NCBI GenBank assembly: GCA_016795105.1
Contig: JAEUIH010000004.1
Span: 1-64,000 of the forward strand
Origin: Planctomyces sp.
Lineage (GTDB): Bacteria > Planctomycetota > Planctomycetia > Planctomycetales > Planctomycetaceae
Length of the DNA: 64,000 bases
Reading direction: 5' to 3'
Below are positions 1 through 3,396 of the stretch, one piece after another; the stretch's first letter is position 1, and every line of letters begins with the position of its first letter. The notes beneath the pieces were generated by a model that was given only the letters and a program-made list of their open reading frames with translations, was not told the DNA's origin and did not search any database. The position numbers and the translations under genes are program-made.

Positions 1-177
1 CGCAGGGGTGGCTCGGGCAGGAATGCCCAAGCTACGACTTGTCCCGCCCTGGTTCGAGTACTGCAGCGGCGCAGGGGCGGCTCGGGCAGGAATGCCCAAG
101 CTACGATTTGTCCCGCGCTGGTTCGAGTACTGCTGCGGCGCAGGAGTGGCTCGGGCAGGAATGCCCAAGCTACGATT
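1..177. repeat. 69-bp tandem repeat with hairpin core (family A)
   Basis: About two and a half head-to-tail copies of a 69-bp unit run from the window edge to the end of the neighbouring sigma-factor gene. The shared core GGGCAGGAATGCCC starts at 15, 84 and 153, so the period is exactly 69. The core can fold as a GGGCA/TGCCC stem with a GGAA tetraloop. Related sequence recurs at 9287-9500 and 58692-58720. The reading frames through it are not believable genes. Confidence 0.9.
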
Positions 178-780
178 TTATCCGAGGAACTCGCGGAGCT
201 TTCGCAGAACTCGGCTGCGGGCCTGACGGACGGCTGCTGTGTGGACGCCGAATTCTGTAGCGACTTCACTGGTGGGACGCAGGTTCACGACCGTCTGCCA
301 GAACATCTGCCACGTACGTGGCTCAAACTCTGCCTGAACGGCTCGAATGGCTCGCTGAGTCAGTTCATTCAGTTGTCCAGGGCCCGTCTGAGGATCCGGG
401 TCTTCAGACAGAGCCTCTGCAACAGTTGCCATTCGCAACCATGCGTCTGTACCTCCGGCCGCTGCTTCACGCTGTGACTTCGAGCGAAAGTATCGGGCCA
501 GCTGATTGCGAGTCAACACCCACAGGAATGCTCGAAAGCTGCCGACATGGCGGTGTTCAAAACGATGGAGCGAAGAGACCAGCCCTTTCAGAATTTCCTG
601 AAGCACATCTGCCGCGTCGGCCTCTGACACATGGTTGCGGCGAATCCAGTATGCCACTAACGGTCCATACACATCAACAAATACGCCCCACGCTGCCGCA
701 TCTTTTGCAACCAGTTTCCCCAGCAGAGTGGGTGATGTTGATGAGAACGATGATGGCGACGTTGGAGAAGTCATACTCAA
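178..780 (-). CDS. ECF-type RNA polymerase sigma factor
   Basis: A 200-residue sigma-70 family protein that would direct RNA polymerase to a small regulon. Region 2 is visible at about residues 35-100, with an acidic ADAADVLQEI segment followed by an aromatic and basic stretch (FRAFLWVLTRNQLARYFR). Region 4 is at about 145-198, ending in a helix-turn-helix (TSEVATEFGVHTAAVRQARS). The Ser/Thr-rich first 20 residues are typical of planctomycete ECF factors. The start could be Met1 or Met3. In planctomycetes such genes often precede a kinase or anti-sigma gene. Here the downstream side is the repeat and then the window edge, so a partner cannot be judged. The family assignment is firm; the regulon is unknown. 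Confidence 0.9.
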   Translation of the reverse strand: MSMTSPTSPSSFSSTSPTLLGKLVAKDAAAWGVFVDVYGPLVAYWIRRNHVSEADAADVLQEILKGLVSSLHRFEHRHVGSFRAFLWVLTRNQLARYFRSKSQREAAAGGTDAWLRMATVAEALSEDPDPQTGPGQLNELTQRAIRAVQAEFEPRTWQMFWQTVVNLRPTSEVATEFGVHTAAVRQARSRVLRKLREFLG

Positions 781-1351: not shown

Positions 1352-1373
1352 AACAGGATGTTGACATCCTGTT
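1352..1373. promoter_or_regulatory. Palindromic operator 1 (probable Rrf2 site)
   Basis: A perfect 9-4-9 inverted repeat with half-sites AACAGGATG and CATCCTGTT. It contains a TTGACA hexamer at 1361-1366 that forms a good -35 box for the rightward genes. Its partner lies 40 bp downstream, centre to centre. Assignment to the adjacent Rrf2 protein is inferred from position and symmetry. Confidence 0.8.
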
Positions 1374-1389
1374 TGCTTGCCGATAAAGT
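1361..1389 (+). promoter_or_regulatory. Sigma-70-type promoter for the heme-protein pair
   Basis: TTGACA (1361-1366) and TAAAGT (1384-1389) are separated by 17 bp, the ideal spacing. The -35 box is embedded in operator 1, and the expected transcription start (about 1395) lies in operator 2. A protein bound at both would occlude the promoter. Inferred from sequence only. Confidence 0.6.
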
Positions 1390-1391
1390 GT

Positions 1392-1413
1392 AACAGGATA
1401 GAGTTATCCTGTT
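1392..1413. promoter_or_regulatory. Palindromic operator 2 (probable Rrf2 site)
   Basis: A second perfect 9-4-9 inverted repeat, AACAGGATA and TATCCTGTT. It shares eight of nine half-site bases with operator 1 and has the same spacer length. It covers the predicted transcription start of the DUF3365-like gene and lies on the upstream side of the Rrf2 gene. Confidence 0.8.
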
Positions 1414-2076: not shown

Positions 2077-3396
2077 ATGATTCGAACAGCCTGTTTGTCC
2101 ATTGTCGCCGGAATTCTTGTCCACTGTGGATCTCCACGCGTCTCTGCCCAGCTGGATTACGAGCAGGATCCGATTCACTACAGTACAGCGACTGCGACTG
2201 ACCCTGTTGCCCGGCTTGCCGACAGAATCCGAGCGGGCGAAGCAAAGCTGACGTGGGATGCGAAGCACGGCTATCTGCCTGCGATGATGAAGGAGCTCAA
2301 CGTTCCTCTGTCATCGCAGGTACTTGTTTTTTCAAAGACAAGTCTTCAGATCAGCCGCATCACTCCACGGACTCCGCGAGCGATCTACTTCAACGATGAT
2401 GTCTATCTCGGCTGGGTACAGCATGGAGAGGTGGTTGAGATTTCCGCGGCAGACCCGGTACTGGGCGGAACTTTTTATACTCTGGCTCAAAAGGAAACGG
2501 AGCAACCGGAAATTAAACGTGAAACCGCGCACTGTCTGCAGTGTCACGGCTCCACACATACTCGGCGAACGCCCGGGCACATGGTTAGATCGGTCTATTC
2601 GGATGCGGGCGGGCTGCCCGTTTATCGACTTGGTACTCATCTGAATGATGATACAAGTCCGTTTGAAGAGCGATGGGGTGGCTGGTATGTGACTGGCACG
2701 CACGGGCGGCAAAGGCATATGGGAAATACGATTCTCCCAAAGGATTCAGAATCTGAAGAGCTTGACTATGAATCAGGGGCGAACCGGAAGACTCTGGAAG
2801 GTCTTGTAAACACAACGCCGTACCAATCAGCTCATAGTGACATCGTGGCGCTGATGGTGCTGCAGCATCAGACGACAATGCACAACATCCTGACAGCAGC
2901 CAACCATTCCGGGCAACTCACTGCTCGGGATTCTGAGATCATGAACAAGGCGCTTGAGCGTCCGGAAGACTTCGAGTCTGAATCGACAGCCCGCCGTTAT
3001 GCTTCGGCGGCTGAAAAGGTTGTGCAGGGGCTATTGTTTTGTGGAGAATATCGCCTGACGGATCCGATTGCCGGTACCAGCGGATTCTCGGAAGAGTTTG
3101 CGGCTCGCGGACCATTTGATTCTCAGGGGCGCAGCCTTCGGCAGTTCGACCTGCAGACGCGATTGTTTCGTTATCCGTGCAGTTTTTTGATCCACACGGA
3201 TTCCTTTAAGTCGCTGCCTCCGGGTGTGCTGAAGATTGTGTGGCGGCGGCTGGATGAGATTTTGAGCGGGCAGGACGAATCTCCAAAGTTTGCTCACCTT
3301 TCCTCGGACGATCGTCGTGCCATCCGTGAGATTCTGTTGGAGACTGTGGAAGGGACGCCGTGGAGCATTTCACAGGCAGTGCTTTCCAATCGCTGA
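2077..3396 (+). CDS. Exported CxxCH cytochrome-like protein
   Basis: A 439-residue protein with an N-terminal signal sequence (residues 1-24, SAQ cleavage-like) and one c-type heme motif, CLQCH, at 153-157. Histidine-rich, conserved-looking stretches follow (HTRRTPGHMVRSVY and GTHGRQRHMGN at about 160-220), which could supply the distal heme ligand. The C-terminal half is mainly helical and has no motif I recognise. A GGGAG ribosome site precedes the ATG. It is second in the apparent Rrf2-controlled unit and probably periplasmic. It resembles uncharacterised planctomycete cytochrome-like proteins. No catalytic role can be assigned. Confidence 0.7.
   Translation: MIRTACLSIVAGILVHCGSPRVSAQLDYEQDPIHYSTATATDPVARLADRIRAGEAKLTWDAKHGYLPAMMKELNVPLSSQVLVFSKTSLQISRITPRTPRAIYFNDDVYLGWVQHGEVVEISAADPVLGGTFYTLAQKETEQPEIKRETAHCLQCHGSTHTRRTPGHMVRSVYSDAGGLPVYRLGTHLNDDTSPFEERWGGWYVTGTHGRQRHMGNTILPKDSESEELDYESGANRKTLEGLVNTTPYQSAHSDIVALMVLQHQTTMHNILTAANHSGQLTARDSEIMNKALERPEDFESESTARRYASAAEKVVQGLLFCGEYRLTDPIAGTSGFSEEFAARGPFDSQGRSLRQFDLQTRLFRYPCSFLIHTDSFKSLPPGVLKIVWRRLDEILSGQDESPKFAHLSSDDRRAIREILLETVEGTPWSISQAVLSNR

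Follow-up and report, generated by a model that had tools for sequence, protein, structure and literature searches.

A conserved double palindrome at heme-protein, hcp and nar promoters of planctomycetes and the Rrf2-family regulator encoded beside it

The Streptomyces Rrf2-type regulator RsrR has a redox role, with a redox-switched [2Fe-2S] cluster. For the related regulator NsrR, PMC5411485 describes a three-cysteine cluster motif together with an acidic ligand near residue 8, and DNA recognition by NsrR, IscR and RsrR is treated in passages of PMC9338935. In the relevant passages of Rodionov et al. (2005; PMC1274295), NsrR is assigned the motif gATGyAT-N5-ATrCATc, hcp is listed among its targets, and tandem NsrR sites are predicted to overlap the promoter of B. 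subtilis hmp; hcp is controlled in other phyla by HcpR, with the consensus TTGACnnnnGTCAA. NsrR homologues were found by BLAST in magnetotactic bacteria, Planctomycetota included, according to parts of PMC11014258, and those parts contain no planctomycete regulon. Titles and abstract openings of the open-licence literature on Rrf2, NsrR, hcp, protoglobin, narG and planctomycetes likewise gave no description of the regulon presented here.

In this study we analyzed two palindromes in a stretch of 64,000 nucleotides (hereafter the window), together with similar sites in related genomes. We consider it likely that the palindromes form a double operator of an Rrf2 repressor that carries an Fe-S cluster and controls nitrate respiration as well as nitrosative defence, a reading in which DNA binding, repression, the cluster and the NO signal are the parts that we infer.

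The double palindrome and its promoter in the window

The Rrf2-family regulator (177 aa) is encoded on the minus strand at 801-1334 (PF02082, 105.8 bits, cut-off 30; TIGR00738, 107.9 bits, cut-off 73.3). Divergent from it, on the plus strand, are the gene of a Tll0287-like (DUF3365) protein of 182 aa with one CxxCH motif (1445-1993; PF11845, 34.9 bits, cut-off 24.1) and, downstream, the gene of a 439-aa protein that also has one CxxCH motif (2077-3396). We take PF11845, Tll0287-like, to be the former DUF3365. The palindromes are located between the Rrf2 gene and these two genes, which are probably co-transcribed. The preliminary description of this DNA had named the same three neighbours, in agreement with the profile scores and the CxxCH motif.

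The 439-aa protein matched no Pfam or NCBIfam family, and a fold search with its model, which is of moderate quality (pLDDT 76.7) and poor around the heme motif, found no PDB match at E 0.001. Relatives were detected by blastp in 17 of 80 Rrf2 loci (the best 80 of 184). Identity to 15 aligned relatives was 43-68%, and Cys and His outside the CxxCH motif were also invariant. These CxxCH proteins apparently form an unassigned family. On the other side of the intergenic region, an ECF sigma factor gene (178-780, minus strand; PF04542, 40.5 bits; TIGR02937, 59.2 bits) is located about 20 bp downstream of the Rrf2 gene in the same direction and may share its transcript. At the start of the window (1-170), a direct repeat of roughly 69 bp (GGCTCGGGCAGGAATGCCCAAGCTACGA...) was seen by eye in about three copies.

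Direct reading and a repeat search showed two perfect 22-bp palindromes with centres 40 bp apart. The Rrf2-proximal palindrome at 1352-1373 (AACAGGATGTTGACATCCTGTT, hereafter operator 1) has arms of the form 10-2-10, and the distal one at 1392-1413 (AACAGGATAGAGTTATCCTGTT, hereafter operator 2) has arms of the form 9-4-9. Two inverted repeats of this length and distance had been reported before, both as 9-4-9; this is exact for operator 2, whereas operator 1 is better described as 10-2-10. The pattern AACAGGATN6ATCCTGTT occurs exactly twice in the 8.9-Mb genome, both copies being at the locus of the window, and the reversed-pattern control gave none. We therefore concluded that the palindromes are real and not due to chance.

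A promoter scan located the -35 hexamer TTGACA of the DUF3365 promoter at 1361-1366 on the plus strand, inside operator 1, and the -10 hexamer TAAAGT at 1384-1389 on the same strand, after a spacer of 17 bp. This promoter has 10 of 12 matches and was the single match in 900-2000 (shuffled sequences: mean 0.6, sd 0.8). The transcription start expected from the -10 alone lies at 1394-1398 on the plus strand, near 1396, and thus within operator 2. The claims that the first palindrome holds the -35 and that the second covers the expected start were both borne out by these positions. The sequence TTGAC is absent from operator 2.

Recurrence of the operator in related loci

Relatives of the Rrf2 protein were retrieved with short peptide patterns, which included residues 1-8 and 138-145. 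The best 80 of 184 confirmed relatives (57-85% identity in the best segment) and the window made up a comparison set of 81 loci. Upstream of many of these relatives a general operator form, AAnnGGAY-N6-RTCCnnTT, was found, in which the GGAY/RTCC core and its distance from the promoter are maintained and the outer and central bases are variable. The expectation that the inverted pair recurs in relatives therefore holds for this wider form; the exact AACAGGAT form is present only in some close relatives. Using a weight matrix trained on 66 sites from the same 81 loci, sites of at least 8 bits were found in 50 of the 81 upstream regions, which are the training loci themselves, as compared with 0.9% of dinucleotide shuffles. 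Within 130 bp, two such sites were present in 34 of the 81 loci (window included), one in 16 and none in 31. The paired sites of the 34 two-site loci are 38-51 bp apart, with a mode of 44.

The presence of the site was associated with the neighbouring gene. When the partner was defined as a divergent heme-protein gene starting within 700 bp, and the site as one of 10 bits within 500 bp, the site was present in 50 of 51 loci with such a partner versus 3 of 29 loci without it (Fisher p 1e-16; best 80 of 184 relatives), although the p-values here and below are only indicative since the loci share descent, some hcp sites being identical, and the value of 50 of 51 is partly circular since the matrix was trained on sites of the same loci. 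The preliminary description had stated that absence of the palindromes from orthologous loci would speak against it; the operator is present in 50 of these 51 loci, and the claim was not refuted by this check. The divergent partners in the 51 loci were protoglobin (36), DUF3365 (9) and the 439-aa family (6). Among the protoglobin-divergent loci, 35 of 36 had the site, and the exception (L074) shows a degenerate site by eye. The protoglobin partner exceeded the PF11563 cut-off of 25 with 118 bits in one such locus (L088), and Blastopirellula marina DSM 3645 has a double site with a divergent protoglobin (L096).

The promoter layout is also conserved. At the position of the window's TTGACA in the Rrf2-proximal site, TTGA was found in 38 of 43 loci (TTGACA in 19, TTGACG in 8). 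Downstream of it in the 38 TTGA loci, most occurrences of TAnnnT were at a spacer of 16 bp (15), 17 bp (19) or 18 bp (2), the remaining spacers between 10 and 25 bp giving 5 in total. With +1 predicted at a fixed distance from the best -10, the second site starts from 5 bp before to 7 bp after +1 in the 31 two-site loci listed, and +1 is inside the second site in 16 of them. Since the positions of the -35, the -10 and the second site recur across loci, an operator over the -35, a -10 and an operator at about +1 constitute a conserved design, and the promoter straddled by palindromes that had been described for the window is an instance of it.

Self-control of the Rrf2 gene had also been proposed. 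A promoter in the Rrf2 direction with its -10 abutting the distal site was found in 20 of 34 two-site loci, where autoregulation is plausible judging from the sequence. No recognisable Rrf2-direction promoter abuts the distal site in the window. Since the window is not among these 20 loci, self-control in the window is without support from a visible promoter.

The genome of the window has double sites at three promoters, namely those of the DUF3365 gene, of hcp-protoglobin and of a cytochrome c gene that leads narGHJI. The double site before the hcp-protoglobin operon (contig C363; 1 and 2 mismatches, 45 bp apart) precedes genes that both score over their cut-offs (hcp, TIGR01703, 603.4 bits; protoglobin, PF11563, 127.7 bits, cut-off 25), and the -10 at this hcp promoter is not clear-cut in the sequence. 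The double site before the nar genes (contig C386) is weaker (10.4 and 13.2 bits, 45 bp apart), and has TTGACA in the first site, TACGCT 17 bp on and then the second site. It is followed by a two-CxxCH cytochrome c gene, narG, narH, a narJ-like gene and narI, of which narG, narH and narI are over their cut-offs (TIGR01580, TIGR01660 and TIGR00351) and narJ is just below that of TIGR00684 (51.4 vs 59.35). In this genome a looser consensus gave 7 sites vs 1 in the control. Four of these lie at the double-site loci, all three of which are represented; in the C363 and C386 pairs, the second site falls outside the consensus pattern. The remaining three sites (C33, C88 and C210) are single and may be due to chance. 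Allowing up to 3 mismatches to the AACAGGAT form gave 75 forward matches vs 7 in the control.

The family was then represented by 170 genomes. Their hcp and nar promoters are outside the training set of the matrix, though the genomes overlap with those of the training loci, and both tests count the loci of the own genome from which they arose. The hcp gene was found in 51 genomes (52 loci), and a site of at least 8 bits was present within 200 bp upstream in 27 of the 52 loci vs 1.2% of shuffles; at 14 bits, the values were 19 of 52 vs 0.1%. The other 25 hcp promoters had no site at 8 bits within 200 bp upstream. Three of these siteless loci (L155, L182 and L199) show, beside an Rrf2 relative, a related palindrome that keeps the GGAC/GTCC core and has TTGAC built in, and whose outer parts are TTGTGGAC/GTCCACAA or close to it. 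Contig ends truncate some of the 52 hcp stretches; in 46, a protoglobin gene adjoins hcp. The nar genes were found in 16 of the 170 genomes at E 1e-60 (17 loci, two from one genome). In the 450 bp around the cytochrome gene start, 14 of 17 loci had a site of at least 8 bits vs 2.2% of shuffles, and 13 of 17 had one at 10 bits vs 0.8%; three nar promoters had no site at 8 bits in these 450 bp.

Genes for Rrf2 relatives adjoin hcp in 11 of the 52 loci (8 at 48-52% and 3 at 31-32% identity) and nar in 3 of the 17 stretches. Judging from coordinates, an Rrf2 relative lies within about 4.2 kb of narG in four more genomes (G017, G043, G159 and G160). Three Rrf2 genes whose products are about 80% identical to that of the window (L047-L049; genomes G132, G131 and G125) have no site at their own gene, and the hcp genes of the same genomes have a double site 45 bp apart (L144, L137 and L147). 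In one genome, hcp, protoglobin, Rrf2 and narG are located within about 12 kb of a single contig (L202, G043:C166), possibly as a compact regulon.

The loose consensus taken alone is a weak predictor, since 12 further genomes gave 35 forward matches vs 12 in the reversed control. Among nine such places inspected, a double site before protoglobin (L230) and a site before a gene of the 439-aa family (L232) fit the pattern; at L233, a site of 27 bits lies 124 bp from the gene of a CxxCH protein, with no clear link between the two, and six places (L231, L234, L235, L236, L238 and L239) showed no evident link to target genes. L237, the Rrf2 locus of G013, is not one of these matches. The compact heme-protein switch proposed in the preliminary description was supported in that the operator is tied to a divergent heme-protein gene. 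It was too narrow, however, as protoglobin is the commonest partner and hcp-protoglobin and narGHJI are included by motif.

The Rrf2 protein, its paralogue at hmp and the rival readings

The residues E7, C90, H97, C102 and H105 are invariant in all 81 Rrf2 sequences (the best 80 of 184 and the window) and C138 in 80 of 81; as E7 and C138 lie within the retrieval patterns, their numbers are subject to bias. Only C90 and C102 are conserved as Cys in the cluster region, with H97 between them, giving the motif C-X6-H-X4-C-X2-H. The best match of the AlphaFold model (pLDDT 83.1) was RsrR (6hsm; E 2.8e-9, 32% identity), and the fold search also found CymR, IscR and NsrR. Since the Cys and His residues are invariant and the nearest folds are Fe-S Rrf2 sensors and CymR, the protein likely binds an Fe-S cluster or another metal centre through an unusual set of ligands. 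Its scores are far below the family cut-offs of NsrR (50.3 bits vs 182, NF008240), IscR (54.0 vs 207.55, TIGR02010; 42.3 vs 275, NF008110) and RirA (58.6 vs 193, NF008886), and also far below that of CymR. As for residue-base covariation, Rrf2 residue 37 was high for one base, but C-terminal residues were equally high, and the signal is confounded by descent.

Hmp was over its cut-off in 33 of the 170 genomes, that of the window included, and protoglobin in 124. The idea that protoglobin replaces Hmp was rejected as a general statement, given these 33 genomes. We examined 20 of the 35 hmp places over cut-off for sites of at least 6 bits within 400 bp upstream, and found a window-type site in three (L271, L276 and L281). 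The sites at L276 (G053) score 10.5 and 6.9 bits and are 43 bp apart, and that at L281 (G095) scores 20.6 bits, both being upstream of hmp. From these sequences, hmp may belong to the regulon in some genomes. The hmp of the window's own genome has no window-type site at 6 bits within 400 bp.

A divergent Rrf2 paralogue with the motif CPLGLxSHTxLCPLH is encoded beside hmp in 14 of the 20 loci. In the own genome, where this is also the case, the second Rrf2 (CPLGLPSHTSLCPLH; L266:600-1086, near 239,500 of contig C336) is accompanied by a different palindrome, TTGAATTCTACA-N8-TGTAGAATTGAA, which has TTGACA at its centre; six more of the 20 loci (L267-L269, L274, L282 and L285) have similar palindromes that contain TTGAC. 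Beyond this Rrf2 gene, an ORF cut by the end of the stretch (L266:2-535, minus strand) appears DUF3365-like by eye and has no Pfam match. Because hmp in the own genome has a separate Rrf2 and another operator, the regulator of the window cannot simply be taken as this cell's NsrR. The hmp-adjacent paralogue nevertheless supports, at the level of gene neighbourhood, a nitrogen-oxide role for the wider Rrf2 subfamily.

The adjacent Rrf2 is the most likely protein to bind the window palindromes. An Rrf2 dimer, probably with an Fe-S cluster, would bind both palindromes and obstruct the -35 together with the point at which the DUF3365-cytochrome transcript begins. Nitrogen oxides, namely NO, perhaps made from nitrite during nitrate respiration, would damage or modify the cluster and thereby release the protein. 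The same Rrf2 would act on the hcp-protoglobin and nar operons of its genome, and the locus of the window would therefore be one branch of a planctomycete regulon.

It is worth noting that there are other possible interpretations. The Rrf2 protein may bind both sites in response to a signal other than NO, such as iron, Fe-S status, oxygen or another redox cue, with nar, hcp and protoglobin forming an anaerobic programme. Since hmp is mostly siteless and has its own Rrf2 paralogue, the signal may indeed not be NO itself. Cluster-type residues combined with scores far below the NsrR, IscR and RirA cut-offs, the redox role of the closest fold, RsrR, and the presence of nar, which would suit an anaerobic switch, point in the same direction. 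The recurrent partners hcp and protoglobin are, however, NO-linked genes, and we regard a signal other than NO as rather unlikely, while giving it more weight than the two interpretations that follow.

Another regulator, for example a CRP/FNR-type HcpR or another Rrf2 paralogue, might bind the palindromes, the neighbouring Rrf2 being incidental. The own genome has 7 matches to the window Rrf2 at E <= 0.001, and HcpR is the regulator of hcp in other phyla (passages of PMC1274295). The core GGAY-N6-RTCC differs, however, from the HcpR consensus given there; the sites are within 500 bp upstream of the Rrf2 gene itself in nearly all loci with a divergent heme-protein gene, and the distal site of the window, as noted, does not contain TTGAC. 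These facts make such a regulator improbable. The palindromes could also be RNA hairpins, acting as an attenuator or a terminator, as the transcript would begin with operator 2, which could fold. Operator 1, however, contains the -35 and precedes the expected start, the pattern of varied outer and central bases around a fixed core is kept at a fixed spacing to the promoter, and a terminator scan called none at either palindrome, so that this last explanation seems very improbable. We retain, as the likely reading, a double operator bound by the adjacent Rrf2 repressor.

A broader and more tentative proposal, to which we give somewhat less than even weight, is that planctomycetes have their own pair of Cys/His-cluster Rrf2 sensors, both with Glu7. 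One, with C-X6-H-X4-C-X2-H, would serve hcp, protoglobin, nar and DUF3365, and the other, with C-X6-H-X3-C-X2-H, would serve hmp. Both would use palindromes with the -35 TTGACA in the middle, and a second operator would be placed at +1 in the first case.

Comparison with described systems

The analysis provides a testable nitrogen-oxide regulon for a phylum that is important in the nitrogen cycle. It links protoglobins, the function of which is to our knowledge still unclear, to hcp and nitrate reductase, offers a likely physiological setting for DUF3365 and the 439-aa CxxCH family, and hints at a cysteine/histidine version of the cluster site of Rrf2 proteins. If the proposal of two sensors is true, the pair would constitute a counterpart of NsrR in nitrogen-oxide regulation, one that uses a new set of metal ligands and has protoglobin as its most frequent effector.

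HcpR and NorR share with the present system the target hcp and the nitrogen-oxide context (passages of PMC1274295). They are, however, FNR-like and sigma-54-dependent, respectively, and have other motifs. RsrR is the best match both in fold and in PDB sequence and, like the window protein, has two rather than three Cys in the region, but the Cys spacing of RsrR is longer and the partner residues differ. The [2Fe-2S] ligands of RsrR are presumably Glu8, His12, Cys90 and Cys110, and the window protein has R11 where we take the RsrR ligand to be His. IscR, with what we take to be C92, C98, C104 and H107, agrees in the spacing of 12 from first to last Cys and of 3 to the following His; its presumed middle Cys, C98, is replaced in the window protein by a His one place later.

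The likeness to NsrR lies in the Rrf2 fold, in hcp and globin-type NO defence, which is matched here by motif only (27 of 52 hcp and 35 of 36 protoglobin loci), in a regulator gene next to its target and in tandem sites over the promoter. The differences are in the operator, which is AAnnGGAY-N6-RTCCnnTT and not gATGyAT-N5-ATrCATc, in the family score, in C-X6-H-X4-C-X2-H instead of the three-cysteine motif, with the acidic E7 present, in protoglobin as the globin, in the inclusion of nar and in hmp, which is mostly siteless (3 of 20 loci with a site). The best reading is thus that the regulator is NsrR-like in its regulon, and not in its operator, family score or cysteine set. Most likely, the system represents an NsrR-like nitrogen-oxide control with a different motif, a different ligand set and a different gene content.
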